Positions 5,219 to 43,489 of a DNA stretch of 43,510 bases are shown here, one piece after another (position 1 is the first letter of the stretch; each line of letters opens with the position of its first letter). Origin of the DNA: an uncultured Eggerthellaceae bacterium (GTDB taxonomy: Bacteria > Actinomycetota > Coriobacteriia > Coriobacteriales > Eggerthellaceae); NCBI GenBank assembly GCA_947650915.1, contig CANSWY010000013.1, forward strand, positions 1 through 43,510. The letters run 5' to 3'. The translations under genes and the position numbers were made by a program. Below the pieces are notes generated by a model. It had not been told where the DNA came from, ran no database searches, and saw only the letters and a program-made list of their open reading frames with translations.

Positions 5219-5406
5219 GATGTGCAAAAGGGACGTTCCAAATTGCACATAGGAAAAGAGATTGAGCACTGAAAGACTCATCCTATGTGCAATTTGGGAC
5301 GTCCCTTTCGCACATCTGGCATGATCGCCTGTGCAATTTGGGACGTCCCTTTCGCACATCAGGCAGCCTCGCAGGTGCAATTTGGGACGTCCCTTTCGCA
5401 CATCTT
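5219..5406 (+). repeat. Long inverted-repeat element, locus 3
   Basis: Left arm 5219-5254, loop with the conserved TTGAGCACTGAAAGACT, right arm 5281-5316, then two further right-arm copies at 5330-5360 and 5374-5405 separated by 13-14-base spacers. Lies 24 bases from the hisI stop codon and about 100 bases upstream of the lipoprotein gene. Confidence 0.9.
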
Positions 5407-9625: not shown

Positions 9626-11022
9626 CAGCGCTCCCCCGCTTCCGCGGCAGCACCTGCACCTGTGCCCGTGCCCGCGTCCGCACCATTGATGGAAGCGCTG
9701 CCCGCGGCACCTTCCACCGGCGCGCCCGTCTCCTGCAGGGCCGCATCCATGCGCAGCGCCACGGACTGCGCGTGCGCCCAGAGGCCCTCGTGCAGCGCGA
9801 TGGCCATCACGGCTTTCGAATCGTTCAACAGCGCTTTTGCGCTGTACTGGATGATGGAGCTCTTCTTCACGAATTCGTCCACGGAAAGGGGGCTCGCGAA
9901 GCGCGCCGTGCCGCCGGTGGGCAGCGTGTGATTCGGGCCGGCCACATAGTCTCCCACGGCTTCCGGCGTCCACGGCCCCAGGAAGATGGCACCCGCGTTC
10001 CTGATCTGGCCCAGGTAGTCCATGGCGTTCGCCACGTGCATCTCCAGGTGCTCCGGCGCGATGACGTTCACCGTTTGCAGCGCTTGCTCCATGTCCGACA
10101 CGATGACCGTGAGGCCGTGGCCTTCCAGGGAGGCGCGCGTGATGTCCGCCCGCGGCGAATGCGCCAGATGCTCCTCCACGGCGCGTTCCACCTCATCCGC
10201 GTAGGCGGCGCTTTCGCACACCAGATAGCAAGCCGCCATGGGGTCGTGTTCGGCCTGGGCCATCAAGTCCATGGCCACCAAGCGCGCATCCGCCGTGGCG
10301 TCCGCCACCACGCAGACCTCCGAAGGCCCGGCGATCATGTCTATCCCCACGTCCCCGGACACCACCTTCTTGGCCGCGGCCACGTACGCGTTGCCCGGGC
10401 CGGTGATCTTGTCCACAGGACGAACGCTTTCCGTGCCGTAGGCCAGCGCGGCCACTGCCTGGGCGCCGCCCACCGTATACACCTCCGTGACGCCGCCCAG
10501 CTTGCAGGCAGCCAGGATGGCCGCGTCCACCGTGCCGTCCTTCTGCGGCGGCGTCACGCAGGCGATGCGCGCCACGCCCGCCACGCTGGCAGGGATGGCG
10601 TTCATGAGCACCGTGGACGGGTAGAGCGCCCGGCCGCCCGGCACGTAGATGCCCACCGAATCCAGCGGCGTCACCTTCGCACCCACGATGGCGCCGTCCT
10701 CCCGGGCGAAGAGCCAGCTTTGGGTGATCTGGCGTTCGTGGAAGTCGCGGATCTGGCGCGTGGCGTGCTTGAGCGCTTCCAGCGTGTCCGGGTCCACCTG
10801 GTCAAGGGCTGCATCCAGCGCTTCCGCGGGCAGCTTGAACGCGTCCACCGTGACGCCGTCCAGCTTCTGCGTGAGCTCCGTGAGCGCCTCATCCCCCCGT
10901 TCGCGCACGTCCGCCACGATGTCCGTGGCCGTTTTCAGCGCGTCGGCGTTGAACGCGCCCGTACGGTCTATGAGGTCCGCGCGGAAGGGTTCCGTGGGCT
11001 TCAGTTCGATGCGTCTCATCAT
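9625..11022 (-). CDS. hisD: Histidinol dehydrogenase
   Basis: A 465-residue zinc enzyme that oxidises histidinol to histidine in two NAD-dependent steps. Signatures visible include GRALYPSTVLMNAIPA, the long GAQAVAALAYGTESV...DKITGPGNAYVAAAK stretch, AGPSEVCVVAD, the catalytic EH pair in APEHLEMH, and the zinc-site GPNHTLPTGGTARF. The last 25-30 residues form an odd alanine/glycine-rich tail that typical HisD lacks, probably disordered. Start overlaps the hisZG stop by four bases. Confidence 0.97.
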   Translation of the reverse strand: MMRRIELKPTEPFRADLIDRTGAFNADALKTATDIVADVRERGDEALTELTQKLDGVTVDAFKLPAEALDAALDQVDPDTLEALKHATRQIRDFHERQITQSWLFAREDGAIVGAKVTPLDSVGIYVPGGRALYPSTVLMNAIPASVAGVARIACVTPPQKDGTVDAAILAACKLGGVTEVYTVGGAQAVAALAYGTESVRPVDKITGPGNAYVAAAKKVVSGDVGIDMIAGPSEVCVVADATADARLVAMDLMAQAEHDPMAACYLVCESAAYADEVERAVEEHLAHSPRADITRASLEGHGLTVIVSDMEQALQTVNVIAPEHLEMHVANAMDYLGQIRNAGAIFLGPWTPEAVGDYVAGPNHTLPTGGTARFASPLSVDEFVKKSSIIQYSAKALLNDSKAVMAIALHEGLWAHAQSVALRMDAALQETGAPVEGAAGSASINGADAGTGTGAGAAAEAGER

Positions 11023-12956
11023 TGGGCACCACCTGCTATCGGTTCGTATTCGGCGCTCTGCGCGTGCTGCGCCAGCGCATCGGCCAATTCTACTATGCGC
11101 CCGTCCGTGCGCAGGCGGGCGGGGTTCGCGAAGAAGCGCGCGGTGGAGGCCAGCACCTCATCCACGATGACCAGGTCATTCTCCCGGAGCGTGGTGCCCG
11201 TGGCCGTGATGTCCACGATGCGTTCGGCCAGGCCGGTCATGGGTGCCAGTTCGATGTTGCCGTTCAGGCGCACGATGTCCGCCTGGATGCCTGCACGGGC
11301 GAAATGCGCGCGCGTGATGTTCGGGTACTTGGTGGCCACGCGGATGGAACCCAGCCGCCGGTAGCGTTCCTGGATGGCGTCTTCCGTGCCGGCCAGTTCG
11401 GCCACCACGAAACGGCAGCCGCCGAACTTGAGATCAGCCAGCTGCACCACCTGGGCGTCGGATTCCAGAAGCGAATCCCGCCCGCAGATGCCGCAGTCCG
11501 CCGCGCCCGATGCCACGAAGGCGGGCGCGTCAGAGGGCCGCACGATGATGTAGTCCGCCGAAGGAGTGCGGATGATCAGCTGTCGGCCCGGGTCTTCCAG
11601 GCCCGTGGTGTCAAGGCCTGCCGCCTGCAGGCTTTCGATGGCGTCCTTGTTGAGAGCACCCTTCGGCACGGCGATGCGAAGGGGCCGCTCCGCATCCAGG
11701 TCCGCCCCGGATGGCGCTGTTGCCGTTGGTGCCGCCGGATCCGTAGCAAAGGCTTCAGCCTTTGTCCCATCCAGCGCTGATGCCGGTTCCGCGGATTCGC
11801 AGGCTAAAGCCTGCGCTACGCAGGTCTCCGACGCAGGTGTCTCTAGACCCGCGAATTCGCAGGTTTCAGGTGTAGATGCTGCTTGATCCGTAGCAAAGGC
11901 TTCAGCCTTTGTCCCAGAGGTTTCAAGCGTCGTTGCCTTTGCCCCATCCGGCGCTGATCCATCGCCTGCGGCGGCGGCCATGGCCTGCTCCAGGGAGAAA
12001 GCGAACCCCGCTGCCGGCCGTTCAGCGCCGAAAGCCGCCAGCATGTGATCATAGCGGCCGCCGGATCCCAGCGAACTGCCCAGATGCGGAGAGAACGCTT
12101 CGAACACGATGCCCGTGTAATAATCGAACGAACTGAGGGCGGAAAAATCCACCAGGATGCGCGCATCCGGGCACGCGCGCGCAACTTCCTGGCAGACGGC
12201 CGCGAGGTCATCCAGACCGTCCGCACAGCCCAAAGGCTCAGTGATGCGGCGCGCCTCTCCGATGGCCTCCACCCCGCCGCGCACGTGCACCAGATCCTGC
12301 ACCGCCTGCGCATAGGCGGGCGCCACGCCCTGGCCGTCCGCCGCAGGCGCCAACGCCTGGCTGTCCGTCAGATTCGCCAGCTCCACGAAGTCAGAGGCAT
12401 GACAGGCCGCCAGCACCGCCTGCTTCCAAGCCGCGCTGCCGCCCGATCGCTCCAACAGCGCCCGCAGCGGGGCCACCGTGGCCACCGCCAGCGTCACCTG
12501 CGTCACGTTCGCCAGCTTGAGCGCACGCAACAGGAGCGAAACCAATTCCGCGTCCGTCTGCCACCCGCTCTCCCCCAGCGCCTCCACGCCGACCTGCGTC
12601 ATCTCGCGCGGAGTGACCTGCGCTGTGCCTTCGGTTTCGCGGAACACGCGCTGGGTGTAACGCAGGCGCAGCGGGCCGTCAGCGGCGGCCAGGCGCGTGG
12701 AGCACATGCGCGCCACCTGCACGGTAACATCTGGCCGCATGGCCAGCAGGTCTCCTTGGGAATCGAAGAAGCGGAAGGGGGATGCGGGCAGATGTGCGCC
12801 GGCGTTCACCACATCCAGCGCCTCCAGCGTGGGCGTTTCGATGGGGCGGAAGCCGACGCGGGCGAACAGGTCCTGCACGCTGCGCGTGATGCGTTCGCGC
12901 TCTGCCGCTTCATCTGGCAGGACGTCACGAAATCCCGTGGGGGTGGATCGGTTCAT
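11019..12956 (-). CDS. hisZG: Fused ATP phosphoribosyltransferase: HisZ regulatory domain plus short-form HisG
   Basis: A 645-residue fusion that catalyses the committed first step of histidine synthesis. Residues 1 to about 335 form a class II histidyl-tRNA-synthetase-like HisZ domain (GFRDVLPDEA, RPDVTVQVAR, RYTQRVFRETE, and FDYYTGIVFEAF...GGRYDHML). Residues about 423-645 form a short HisG catalytic domain (LRIAVPKGALNKDA, GICGRDSLLE, VATKYPN, and the PRPP-binding IVDITATGTTLRENDL). Short HisG normally needs a separate HisZ; here both are one chain. The joining linker, about residues 340-422, contains three copies of a palindromic repeat translated in frame; two of them both read GTKAEAFATD. 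The start at 12956 follows a GAGGAG site; an upstream extension would be encoded by repeat locus 4. First gene of the operon. Confidence 0.93.
   Translation of the reverse strand: MNRSTPTGFRDVLPDEAAERERITRSVQDLFARVGFRPIETPTLEALDVVNAGAHLPASPFRFFDSQGDLLAMRPDVTVQVARMCSTRLAAADGPLRLRYTQRVFRETEGTAQVTPREMTQVGVEALGESGWQTDAELVSLLLRALKLANVTQVTLAVATVAPLRALLERSGGSAAWKQAVLAACHASDFVELANLTDSQALAPAADGQGVAPAYAQAVQDLVHVRGGVEAIGEARRITEPLGCADGLDDLAAVCQEVARACPDARILVDFSALSSFDYYTGIVFEAFSPHLGSSLGSGGRYDHMLAAFGAERPAAGFAFSLEQAMAAAAGDGSAPDGAKATTLETSGTKAEAFATDQAASTPETCEFAGLETPASETCVAQALACESAEPASALDGTKAEAFATDPAAPTATAPSGADLDAERPLRIAVPKGALNKDAIESLQAAGLDTTGLEDPGRQLIIRTPSADYIIVRPSDAPAFVASGAADCGICGRDSLLESDAQVVQLADLKFGGCRFVVAELAGTEDAIQERYRRLGSIRVATKYPNITRAHFARAGIQADIVRLNGNIELAPMTGLAERIVDITATGTTLRENDLVIVDEVLASTARFFANPARLRTDGRIVELADALAQHAQSAEYEPIAGGAQ
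11742..11764 (+). repeat. CGTAGC palindrome, inside hisZG linker (copy a)
   Basis: CGTAGC followed by an AAAGGCT-TC-AGCCTTT hairpin. On the minus strand it is translated within GTKAEAFATD in the linker of the HisZ-HisG fusion. Confidence 0.88.
11798..11820 (-). repeat. CGTAGC palindrome, inside hisZG linker (copy b, stem variant)
   Basis: Opposite orientation to copy a: read on the minus strand it is CGTAGC then GCAGGCT-TT-AGCCTGC. Translated as part of CVAQALACES, a different peptide from copies a and c. The stem differs from copy a by paired changes. Confidence 0.88.
11889..11911 (+). repeat. CGTAGC palindrome, inside hisZG linker (copy c)
   Basis: Same sequence and orientation as copy a, again translated as GTKAEAFATD in the hisZG linker, 147 bases (49 codons) from it. 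Confidence 0.88.
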
Positions 12957-14140: not shown

Positions 14141-14326
14141 ATATGCAAAAGGGACGTCCCAAATCGCACCTGCTTGGGGGCGATGTGCAAAAGGGACGTT
14201 CCAAATCGCACATAGGAAAAGAGGGCCGGCAAAGAAAAGACTGATCCTATGTGCAATTTGGGACGTCCCTTTTGCACATCAGGCAACATCACGGGTGCAA
14301 TTTGGGACGTCCCTTTTGCACATCAG
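14141..14326 (+). repeat. Long inverted-repeat element, locus 5
   Basis: The full symmetric form: outer left arm 14141-14169, spacer GCTTGGGGGCG, inner left arm 14181-14216, loop, inner right arm 14245-14280, spacer, outer right arm 14296-14325. Fills the space between the ZIP gene start and the DUF362 gene end; the remaining 100 bases upstream of the ZIP gene show nothing I can name. Confidence 0.9.
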
Positions 14327-14328
14327 GA

Positions 14329-14357
14329 GGTCACGAATCCTCCGTCCCTTCGTGACC
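14329..14357 (-). repeat. GGTCAC hairpin (copy 1)
   Basis: GGTCACGAA - TCCTCCGTCCC - TTCGTGACC: a perfect 9-bp stem with an 11-base loop, directly beside the stop codon of the DUF362 gene. Read in that gene's direction the loop is GGGACGGAGGA. Confidence 0.85.
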
Positions 14358-15453: not shown

Positions 15454-15469
15454 TTCCCGAACGGCTGGA

Positions 15470-15498
15470 GGTCACGAATCCTCCGTCCCTTTGTGACC
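15470..15498 (-). repeat. GGTCAC hairpin (copy 2)
   Basis: Same 11-base loop as copy 1; one stem pair is G.T here, intermediate between the G-C of copy 1 and the A-T of copy 3. Located between repeat locus 6 and the pepC terminator. Confidence 0.85.
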
Positions 15499-16987: not shown

Positions 16988-17010
16988 CGCAGGCTAAAGC
17001 CTGCGCTACG
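16988..17010 (-). repeat. CGTAGC palindrome, intergenic (copy d)
   Basis: Identical to copy b in the hisZG linker (GCAGGCT/AGCCTGC stem). Lies upstream of pepC. Confidence 0.85.
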
Positions 17011-17035: not shown

Positions 17036-17058
17036 CGTAGCAAAGGCTTCAGCCTTTG
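17036..17058 (+). repeat. CGTAGC palindrome, intergenic (copy e)
   Basis: Identical to copies a and c (AAAGGCT/AGCCTTT stem), in inverted orientation to copy d, 25 bases away, and only six bases from the stop codon of the C45-like gene. Confidence 0.85.
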
Positions 17059-29929: not shown

Positions 29930-30119
29930 ACGTGCAGAAGGGACGTTCCAAATCGCACATAGCAGGGGAGCCTCCGGATGTGCAAAAGGGACGTTCCAAA
30001 TCGCACATAGGAAAAGACGATGAACACAGAAAGACTGTTCCTATGTGCAATTTGGGACGCCCCTTTTGCACATCAGGCGATCTCGCGGGTGCAATTTGGG
30101 ACGTCCCTTCTGCACGTCA
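29930..30119 (+). repeat. Long inverted-repeat element, locus 9
   Basis: Outer left arm 29930-29961 (GACGTGCAGAAGGG), inner left arm 29978-30013 (GCAAAAGGG), loop, inner right arm 30038-30074 (CCTTTTGC), outer right arm 30089-30119 (CCCTTCTGCACGTC). The outer arms match each other and the inner arms match each other at variable positions. Confidence 0.9.
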
Positions 30120-30121
30120 CA

Positions 30122-30455
30122 CCGCCGCGTTGCCGCACGGGGGCCGAAGGCCTCCCGCGCACGCGGCGCTCCCCCGCAGCAGCAAGCCGAACCCAGCAAC
30201 ACCCCCGAACCCGGATGCACCCGACCCAAAGGGCGATGGGCGCGAATGCGCCCTAGAGCCCGCCAGTGAAACTGCGTCCCGCGCTTCGCGCGGGACGCGC
30301 ACACGCGAAGCGCGCACGGCCGGTGCGCACCCCCATGCCAAGCGCGCCCACAGGGCCGCGCTTGGCATGGGGGTGCCGGCGGCCGTGCGCCAGAGACAAA
30401 AGTGACAACCCAGTGCGCTCGGCATGTGCAAAAGGGACGTTCCAAATTGCACATG
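30122..30455. repeat. 334-bp structured repeat element, copy 1
   Basis: Nearly identical (about 12 differences, no gaps) to 43156-43489. It contains hairpin A 30123-30168 (outer CGCCGCGT/ACGCGGCG), hairpin B 30238-30253 (GGGCGC-GAAT-GCGCCC), hairpin C 30274-30298 (11-bp GC stem, UUC loop) and hairpin D 30312-30390, whose core is a perfect 20-bp stem 30327-30346/30357-30376. It ends in a single left arm of the long repeat family (30423-30455). Minus-strand open frames across it differ mostly by amino-acid-changing substitutions between copies, so it is probably noncoding. Confidence 0.85.
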
Positions 30456-30637: not shown

Positions 30638-30660
30638 CGAAGGCTAAAGCCTTCGCTACG
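30638..30660 (-). repeat. CGTAGC palindrome, intergenic (copy f, third stem variant)
   Basis: Minus strand: CGTAGC then GAAGGCT-TT-AGCCTTC, a third stem version kept by paired changes. It lies 34 bases past the permease stop codon. Confidence 0.85.
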
Positions 30661-39014: not shown

Positions 39015-39093
39015 TGAAGCCTCCCGTCTGTCCGCTCTTGCCGTCTGGCGCGGGATGCTACGGGAAATCTGGTCTGGTGTTTATGCTCAGTTT

Positions 39094-39110
39094 CCATATT
39101 TCTGATATGG
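39094..39110. promoter_or_regulatory. Candidate PdxR operator
   Basis: CCATAT-TTCTG-ATATGG, a perfect 6-bp dyad in the 110-base space between pdxS and the divergent PdxR-type gene, 14 bases upstream of the latter's GTG. A tandem CTGGTCTGGT lies nearby at 39070-39079. Divergent regulators of this family usually control their neighbour, so this is the natural place for a site; I do not see the known corynebacterial PdxR motif. Confidence 0.4.
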
Positions 39111-39124
39111 CCAGAGGAGGAGCC

Positions 39125-40645
39125 GTGCTGACCTACGAGCTTGACCGCACGAACACGCTGCCGCTCTATGACCAGCTGTACCGGCATATCCGTGCGGACA
39201 TCGAATGCGGCGCGCTGGCATCGGGCGCGCGCCTGCCCTCCAAGCGCATGCTGGCGCGCCACTTGGGCGTCAGCCGCATCACCGTGGAAGGCGCGTTCGC
39301 ACAGCTTGCCGCTGAAGGCTACGTGACGGCCGAAGAGCGCAAGGGGCACTTCGTGGCCCCCTTCGAAGGAGCTGCCGCTGCTCCCGGAACGCCCCGCAAC
39401 AGAACGCCCGCTGCTCCCGGATCCATCCGTAGCAAAGGCTTCAGCCTTTGTCCCGCCCCCAGCGGACCCGCCGAACCCGATGAGACGCCCGCAGCCAGCG
39501 CACCTGACGCGCCCCTCGCCCCGGACCCCCTGCTGGCCGACCTCACGGGCGCCACGGCCCCCACCGGCCTGTTCCCCTACCAACACTGGGCGCGCACCCT
39601 GCGCGCGGTGCTGGCTGACGGGTCCGAAGAAACGCTCTTGTCCGCCGCTCAGCCTCAAGGGTTCCTTCCGCTGCGCCGCGCCCTCGCGCAGCATCTGCGC
39701 GGATTCCGCGGCATGGATGCCACGCCTGGACAGATCGTCATCGGGGCGGGTGCCCAGGTGCTCTACCAGCTGATCGCACAGCTGCTTCCCCCGGATGCCT
39801 GCATCGCGCTGGAAGATCCGGGCTACCCGCGCTTGGCGCGCATCTACGGATCCCTGGGCGTGCGCACCTGCGCCGTGCCGCCGCTCACGGACGCGCACGC
39901 CTTCGAACAGCTGCGCGCCACGGATGCCACCGCCGTGCACTGCATGCCTTCGCACCACTTCCCCACCGGTGCCACCATGCCCGCGCCCGTTCGCAGCCTG
40001 CTGATCACGTGGGCACAGGCGGCCCCGGGCCGTTTCGTCATCGAAGATGACTACGACTGCGAATTCCGCATGCAAGGAAAGGCCATCCCGCCGCTGGCCG
40101 CACGAAACCAAGACCAGATCATCTACCTGAACACCTTCACGAAGAGCCTGGGCGCGGCGTTCCGCATCGGCTACATGGTGCTCCCGCCCGCGCTAGCCGA
40201 ACGGTTCCGCACGCATCTGGGCTTCTATTCCTGCACCGTGGGCGGCATGGACCAGGCAACGCTCTGCCGCTTCATGGAGACGGGCGCGTACGAACGCCAC
40301 TGCAACCGGCTGCGCACGCACTACCGGCGCGTGTCCCGCCAGCTGGCGCAAGCACTGGAGGAAGCCATCCGGCCGCATGGAGGCAGCCTGGCGAACGTGG
40401 GTGCCGGGCTGCACTTCACCATGCACCTGCCGCACATGCGCACCGAATGCGCGCAAGCGGCCTTCCTTGAGGAGCTGGCGAACGCGGGCGTGCGGATGAA
40501 CCCGCTCTCAGCCTACCGCCGCACCTTGCCCTCAGACGATGCGGGCATGTTCCTGGTGTCCTTCAGCAGCGTGGACGAGCCTGCCATCCCCCTGATCGCG
40601 AACACCCTCCGCATGTGCATCAAGCCCTCTCCTGAACCCCGCTGA
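39125..40645 (+). CDS. pdxR: PdxR/MocR-family transcriptional regulator
   Basis: A 506-residue GntR-MocR regulator. Residues 1-75 form a winged helix (PLYDQLYRHIRADIECGAL, then LPSKRMLARHLGVSRITVE); residues about 135-506 form a class I aminotransferase-like domain that binds PLP as ligand, with the lysine in NTFTKSLGAAFRIGY and FVIEDDYDCEFR. The interdomain linker (about 78-135) contains a CGTAGC palindrome translated as RSKGFSLCP. The start is GTG at 39125 with AGGAGG close ahead; upstream ATG codons have no such site. Its divergent position to pdxST strongly suggests PLP-responsive control of that operon. The stop TGA overlaps repeat locus 12. Confidence 0.9.
   Translation: MLTYELDRTNTLPLYDQLYRHIRADIECGALASGARLPSKRMLARHLGVSRITVEGAFAQLAAEGYVTAEERKGHFVAPFEGAAAAPGTPRNRTPAAPGSIRSKGFSLCPAPSGPAEPDETPAASAPDAPLAPDPLLADLTGATAPTGLFPYQHWARTLRAVLADGSEETLLSAAQPQGFLPLRRALAQHLRGFRGMDATPGQIVIGAGAQVLYQLIAQLLPPDACIALEDPGYPRLARIYGSLGVRTCAVPPLTDAHAFEQLRATDATAVHCMPSHHFPTGATMPAPVRSLLITWAQAAPGRFVIEDDYDCEFRMQGKAIPPLAARNQDQIIYLNTFTKSLGAAFRIGYMVLPPALAERFRTHLGFYSCTVGGMDQATLCRFMETGAYERHCNRLRTHYRRVSRQLAQALEEAIRPHGGSLANVGAGLHFTMHLPHMRTECAQAAFLEELANAGVRMNPLSAYRRTLPSDDAGMFLVSFSSVDEPAIPLIANTLRMCIKPSPEPR
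39428..39450 (+). repeat. CGTAGC palindrome, inside pdxR linker (copy g)
   Basis: Same sequence as copies a, c and e, but here on the coding strand and translated as RSKGFSLCP between the DNA-binding and aminotransferase-like domains of the regulator. Confidence 0.88.
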
Positions 40646-41858: not shown

Positions 41859-42057
41859 GATGTGCAAAAGGGACGTTCCAAATTGCACATAGGAATAGAG
41901 AATGAGCACAGAAAGACTCATCCTATGTGCAATTTGGGACGTCCCTTTCGCACATCCGTCAACCTCACGGGTGCAATTTGGGACGTCCCTTTTGCACATC
42001 AGGCAACCTCACGGGTGCAATTTGGGACGTCCCTTTTGCACACTTTCGCACATCTCC
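41859..42057 (+). repeat. Long inverted-repeat element, locus 13
   Basis: Left arm 41859-41894, loop, right arm 41922-41957, then two more right-arm copies (41971-42000, 42014-42042) and a truncated arm end TTTCGCACATC at 42044-42054. Fills the space between the converging HxlR and DUF3021 genes, touching one stop codon and three bases from the other. Confidence 0.9.
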
Positions 42058-43057: not shown

Positions 43058-43066
43058 CACCCCGAA

Positions 43067-43095
43067 GGTCACAAATCCTCCGTCCCTTTGTGACC
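43067..43095 (-). repeat. GGTCAC hairpin (copy 3)
   Basis: GGTCACAAA - TCCTCCGTCCC - TTTGTGACC, a perfect stem with A-T replacing the G-C of copy 1. Upstream of the LytTR gene. Confidence 0.85.
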
Positions 43096-43155
43096 TGACA
43101 GGTTGCAGCAAGGCGCGCGCAAGCGGACCCCTCTTGCGCCCCGCCGCGCGAAGCG

Positions 43156-43489
43156 CCGCCGCGTTGCCGCGCGGGGGCCGAAGGCCTCCCGCGCACGCGG
43201 CGCTCCCCCGCAGCAGCAAGCCGAACCCAGCAACACCCCCGAACCCGGATGCACCCGACCCAAAGGGCGATGGGCGCGAATGCGCCCTAGAGCCCGCCAG
43301 TGAAACTGCGTCCCGCGCTTCGCGCGGGACGCGCACACGCGAAGCGCGCACGATCGGTGCGCATCCCCATGCCAGGCGCGCCCGCAGGACCGCGCCTGGC
43401 ATGGGGATGCCGGCGGCCGTGCGCCAGAGACAAAAGTCATAACCCAGTGCGCTCGGCATGTGCAAAAGGGACGTCCCAAATTGCACATA
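43156..43489. repeat. 334-bp structured repeat element, copy 2
   Basis: Second copy of the element at 30122-30455, same orientation. Hairpin D core is 43361-43380/43391-43410, again perfect over 20 bp. Ends in one left arm of the long repeat family, then runs to the window edge. Confidence 0.85.

Follow-up and report, generated by a model that had tools for sequence, protein, structure and literature searches.

A GTAG-headed family of repetitive extragenic palindromes in an uncultured Eggerthellaceae bacterium, with copies translated in protein linkers

The palindrome lying within the gene for a PdxR-type MocR regulator of an uncultured Eggerthellaceae bacterium is a GTAG-headed repetitive extragenic palindrome (REP). 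It is very probable that its variants, with AA-, GC- and GA-type stems, make up a single species-level REP family with BIME-like pairs, for which the likeliest agent of spread is the Y1 (HuH) RAYT transposase of its own REPtron, and that the copies located in coding sequences are insertions that have survived in tolerant linkers. Plain coordinates refer to the window, i.e. the whole stretch of 43,510 nucleotides analysed (contig CANSWY010000013.1 of assembly GCA_947650915.1); those prefixed C1 or L refer to other stretches.

Structure, copy number and placement of the REP

The initial annotation had reported a palindrome in the PdxR-type gene at 39428-39450; it is present there, with its core (GTAGCAAAGGCTTCAGCCTTTG) at 39429-39450 on the plus strand, and further exact copies of the core begin at 11743, 11890 and 17037 of the window, all on the same strand. 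The host genome (1,977,045 bases, i.e. 1.98 Mb, in 50 contigs) contains 66 exact matches to GTAGCNNAGGCTNNAGCCTNNG, as against none to a reversed control. No exact copy was found in 137 other Eggerthellaceae genomes, including that of a same-genus relative (G001), nor in 395 other genomes of a phylum sample that overlaps the family set. As a single-stranded DNA hairpin, the 28-mer has a folding energy of -6.3 kcal/mol (z = -4.06). The number of host copies, the empty reversed control, the absence from the 137 family genomes and the fold score together place the palindrome beyond chance.

Each element comprises a GTAG tetranucleotide head located 5' to a short stem-loop, with a stem of 8 bp and a loop of 2 bases, mostly TC or TT. 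The stems are kept perfect, and the 66 exact copies divide into AA (28), GC (24), GA (13) and GG (1) types. They fall into 41 clusters, 20 of which have at least two copies and 21 of which are singles. Neighbouring REPs within 200 bp of each other are predominantly inverted (22 of 25 pairs), the opposite-orientation pairing of BIMEs and REPINs, with 13 arranged head-to-head (GTAG outside), 9 tail-to-tail (GTAG inside) and 3 in tandem. A tail-to-tail pair is formed in the window by an intergenic GC-type REP on the minus strand (16988-17009) and an intergenic AA-type REP on the plus strand (17037-17058); a GA-type REP (GTAGCGAAGGCTTTAGCCTTCG) is also intergenic, on the minus strand at 30638-30659.

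The placement of the copies was analysed in 35 stretches surrounding them (309,319 bases including the window), using genes called by our own codon-usage script. The family is dispersed chiefly between genes: 56 of the 66 exact copies are intergenic by these calls, 8 are intragenic and 2 straddle the end of a gene, in stretches that the same script, which is not a standard caller, scores as 85% coding. Allowing up to one mismatch gives 78 places, some of which are an exact copy read in reverse, with 66 intergenic, 10 inside genes and 2 partial. A naive binomial probability for 8 or fewer of 66 falling inside genes is ~1e-39, of which the direction alone is trustworthy, since the copies occur in clusters and it was their positions that determined which stretches were analysed. 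This depletion (8 of 66 inside genes, versus 85% coding sequence) speaks against the proposal that the family resembles the Rickettsia palindromic elements in being adapted to coding sequence and selected for entry into open reading frames, which its in-phase residence in several proteins might suggest. The head also differs, being GTAG here, while R. conorii RPE-4 and RPE-6 are treated as CGTC repeats in the available text of PMC3733652, and we regard such an element as highly improbable.

Other repeats are present in the same DNA. A 29-bp near-palindrome, TGTGCAATTTGGGACGTCCCTTTTGCACA, occurs with up to 4 mismatches at 42 places in the window (e.g. 5228-5363, 14236-14327 and 41912-42047) and has 207 occurrences across the 309,319 bases of host genome, 5 of these inside called genes, whereas the loci of relatives (349,059 bases) gave none; it is a separate repeat family, denser than the REP. 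The window also contains a 300-nt direct repeat, 94% identical between 30105-30404 and 43139-43438, and a 32-nt repeat with inverted ends, GGAGGTCACGAATCCTCCGTCCCTTCGTGACC, at 14326-14357, 15467-15498 and 43064-43095.

The RAYT locus and the spread of the family

The host genome encodes six Y1_Tnp (PF01797) genes, one of which is a RAYT gene located between REPs of the same family. This gene (C1:137944-138414, minus strand, by our own gene call) matches NF047646, REP_Tyr_transpos, with 85.2 bits against a cut-off of 80; the protein has an HVH sequence plus a YIENNP tyrosine region, which we take to be motifs of this transposase type. REPs are located on one side at 137849, 137882 and 137966, the last of these within the 3' coding end of the RAYT gene itself, and on the other at 138463 and 138505. 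The RAYT gene with its surrounding REPs constitutes a REPtron. The five other Y1_Tnp loci all lack neighbouring REPs of the 66-copy family. One of them (C1:219493; L005:1117-1802) has a different GTAG palindrome, GTAGGGCARGGGCTTGCCCYTGCC, on both sides and looks like a second REPtron.

The enzyme of the first REPtron, of the Y1/HuH type, would be the most likely agent of spread. For other RAYTs, a CT cleavage dinucleotide has been described. Other TnpAREP proteins require both GTAG and the hairpin for cleavage and strand transfer of single-stranded REPs, according to the part of PMC8266576 available, and by analogy with these the host RAYT presumably cleaves and moves the REP of the window as single-stranded DNA.

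The linkage to a RAYT is also relevant when considering whether the palindrome might instead be a selected DNA or RNA site, e.g. a protein-binding site, terminator or RNA stabiliser, with the coding copies being used as such. The maintenance of perfect stems is as a functional site would have it, and roles in termination and gyrase binding have been proposed for REPs elsewhere (PMC3733652, in the text available). Against this are the lack of the palindrome in all 137 other family genomes and the location of a RAYT gene within a cluster of the repeats, which make a selected site improbable compared with a mobile REP family.

Similar REP motifs exist beyond the host genome, as seen in environmental IMG/VR stretches, three of which (L173, L175 and L180) each have several GTAGC(A/G)CAGGCTTCAGCCTGTG-like palindromes. 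A similar motif is present in 13 stretches of viral contigs, the three inspected differing from the host REP in their flanks and outer stem bases; the search of these 13 stretches with the host RAYT gave one weak relative (33% over 90 aa).

Copies translated within proteins

The 8 intragenic copies are located in six genes, i.e. those for the RAYT (at its C terminus), a CydDC fusion, FtsY, a fusion of FAD-dependent and YrdC proteins, HisZG (three copies) and the PdxR-type regulator. On each strand one reading frame through the REP is closed by a stop and the other two are open, so that four of the six are open in all; the coding copies use both that are open on the plus strand and one of those on the minus strand. 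Where a copy falls in phase into a linker that tolerates it, it would survive and be translated as a spacer peptide, probably without a role in the host protein.

The PdxR-type open reading frame (39038-40645, plus strand; 535 aa) matches NF052282 with 441 bits against a cut-off of 320. Its REP (39425-39454, core 39429-39450, plus strand) is read as IRSKGFSLCP and lies at residues ~130-139, between a GntR domain (residues 43-106) and a Pfam aminotransferase match starting at residue 194. The hisZG fusion gene (11019-12956, minus strand) has three REPs in a linker of 95 aa. Two are AA-type, on the plus strand at 11739-11768 (core 11743-11764) and 11886-11915 (core 11890-11911), both read antisense as GTKAEAFATD; the third, of GC type, is on the minus strand at 11798-11819 and is read as VAQALACE. 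In the 645-aa form of HisZG the REPs fall at residues ~348-405, between a HisZ domain (8-324) and a HisG domain (473-628). With Pfam domains on either side of the REP in PdxR and HisZG alike, the initial description of both sites as interdomain linkers is correct. Its proposal that the same DNA is read on opposite strands is likewise borne out, IRSKGFSLCP in PdxR corresponding codon-for-codon to GTKAEAFATD in HisZG, in register thrice.

It had further been argued that protein homology cannot account for such an element, a view upheld by the location of most copies between genes and by the two peptides being encoded antisense to each other. Common protein ancestry, or convergence on similar linker peptides, might have been entertained given the low complexity of the linkers at both sites. 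The two peptides come from opposite strands, however, and most copies are intergenic; none of 29 homologous PdxR-type loci has the KGFSL, GFSLC or SKGFS peptides, and the HisZG linker is only 8-9 aa in four relatives. An explanation at the protein level is therefore rejected as scarcely tenable. The case that would have spoken against insertion, i.e. the same linker peptide encoded by other codons, was looked for in the same 29 loci, and with the peptide in none of them the insertion reading stands.

Insertion is clear for HisZG and for the FAD-dependent/YrdC fusion, because orthologues align at the relevant positions without the REP-holding stretch. For HisZG, the host linker of 95 aa compares with 9, 9, 8 and 8 aa in the four aligned relatives; the best matches among named genomes are from an uncultured Eggerthellaceae bacterium (77%, L050), then from Ellagibacter (54%, L051). 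For the FAD-dependent/YrdC fusion, the host has 95 residues in the alignment columns where the same-genus orthologue of G001 has 56, and the REP-coded stretch RSKGFSLCPSQAEACAA, encoded by a REP pair, falls in this excess of 39 residues and is absent from all 13 aligned relatives. The alignment comprises the loci of these 13, further relatives being known from match coordinates alone; matches in the genome search break near residues 244-297 in many relatives. The FAD-dependent protein of a genome from another genus (G095; locus L139) has a long extra low-complexity segment near the REP-pair loop, in the DNA of which no hairpin was found.

The insertional origin originally proposed is supported by the dispersed, mostly intergenic nature of the repeat and by the absence of the REP stretches from HisZG and FAD-dependent/YrdC relatives; for the PdxR copy itself, insertion is what we infer from its likeness to these two cases. 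PdxR-type proteins are common in the family (matches at 1e-30 in 93 of 138 genomes, that of the host included), and the same-genus G001 has no close one (31%). The segment corresponding to the linker is hypervariable and unalignable in the 29 homologous loci, ranging from 77 to 250 residues, so that an empty PdxR site cannot be displayed. The linker of one such protein, from another Eggerthellaceae genome (G029), has two perfect TGTTTCACGTGAAACA sites (L081:1155-1170 and L081:1202-1217), which we assume to be parS-like and which are translated in two different frames, as VSRET and FHVKH; this pair is another DNA element lodged in a like linker.

The insertion boundary suggested at the outset, CCGTAGC...TTTGTCCC, does not describe the family and is rejected as a general boundary, fitting 3 of the 66 copies. 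A C directly precedes GTAG in 63 of the 66, and TCC follows the core in 16, yet CC before together with TCCC after a TTTG-ending core occurs precisely in the PdxR copy and the two AA-type hisZG copies. Given these shared flanks, the three are more closely related to one another than they are to the other copies. Instead of a RAYT event, local recombination, gene conversion or template switching may have carried the sequence between hisZG and the PdxR-type gene, in either direction. Consistent with this are the identity of all 30 bases between the three copies (ATCC-core-TCCC, starting at 39425, 11739 and 11886), the flanks found in them alone among the 66, and the location of the PdxR and hisZG copies 28 kb apart on one contig. 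Copies made by a RAYT could, however, also have the same short flanks, and no longer match extends past the 30 bp round 39425-39454 (a repeat family detected there, D9, is 73% identical over 45 nt). Local copying is accordingly an unlikely origin, even if the least unlikely of the alternatives to RAYT-mediated insertion considered here.

The copies in the CydDC fusion and FtsY do not give a clean insertion when compared with G001, because the CydDC alignment is ungapped and the FtsY relative is the longer. Thus the REP-coded residues of CydDC face unrelated residues with no gap (100 vs 94 aa over the segment), while FtsY has 98 residues in the relative vs 83 in the host; two relatives were aligned for CydDC and seven for FtsY. 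At the aligned place in ftsY, G001 has GTAGCGCAGATCTTCAGATCTGCC, in the same frame, with a second, imperfect look-alike upstream. The encoded peptides are RSAGSSLRPEE in the host and RSADLQICPEE in G001, and the stems differ on both arms (GCAGGCT/AGCCTGC vs GCAGATCT/AGATCTGC), each being in the palindrome style of its own genome. The site lacks a GTAG hairpin in all six of the remaining FtsY relatives that were examined. In a G001 sample of 352,930 bases (20 stretches), GTAGYGCAGNNCTNNAGNNCTGC occurs 8 times, with its inner bases fully paired in 7; GTAG plus any hairpin is not enriched in this sample (10, compared with 0-27 when these four letters are arranged otherwise), and GTAGYGCAGNNCTNNAGNNCTGC alone stands out.

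It thus seems that G001, a sister species, has a sibling palindrome family. The ftsY site, in this one gene, may be older than the split between the species, its stem having been replaced or having drifted on both arms. More generally, REP sites in coding sequences could be old residents in which the hairpin is renewed, i.e. the DNA would undergo concerted turnover while serving as a protein linker; this is a tentative proposal and, on balance, a doubtful one.

Relation to known REP systems

The results for HisZG and the FAD-dependent/YrdC fusion provide two good examples in which a mobile hairpin has made a conserved protein longer while keeping its reading frame, including by comparison with a same-genus relative. 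Protein linkers can thus record past mobile-element activity, and such linker peptides are not to be taken by annotators for conserved motifs. Within a literature coverage that included few subscription journals, we found no paper plainly about a REP/RAYT family in Actinobacteria, Eggerthella or Coriobacteriia.

In Pseudomonas and Escherichia coli, REPINs and BIMEs are formed by REPs paired in inverted orientation and are linked to a RAYT gene, and the host family resembles these on both counts; here there are 66 exact copies, and many of the clusters (21 of 41) are singles. With the Rickettsia palindromic elements the family shares a palindrome that is translated in phase within unrelated proteins, but it differs from them in its GTAG head, its linked RAYT and the minority status of its genic copies.

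The closest likeness is to the GTAG-REP families and REPtrons of Di Nocera et al. (2013, PMC3733652). As described in the available text of that work, these likewise have a GTAG head, a short perfect stem and a 2-base loop of TY type, form head-to-head and tail-to-tail dimers, flank RAYT genes and are chiefly intergenic with some in-phase genic copies. The presence of GTAG-REPs in phase inside genes was already published there, with flexible linkers proposed as the tolerant sites. GTAG repeats are there placed in Proteobacteria, Cyanobacteria, Chloroflexi and the PVC group, unlike the present host, which belongs to the Eggerthellaceae (Actinomycetota); the likeness to these families, numbered GTAG-1 to GTAG-24, is in overall anatomy. 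In the part of PMC8266576 available, the Stenotrophomonas REPtron Sm (group 3 TnpAREP) has a 23-nt REP with an 8-bp perfect palindrome and a short loop after GTAG, an arrangement like that of the host family, although the loop there is of 3 nt rather than the 2 nt, mostly TC or TT, of the host family. The host REP family is thus a known kind of event in a new lineage, and adds an Eggerthellaceae (Actinomycetota) case to the REP/RAYT systems.
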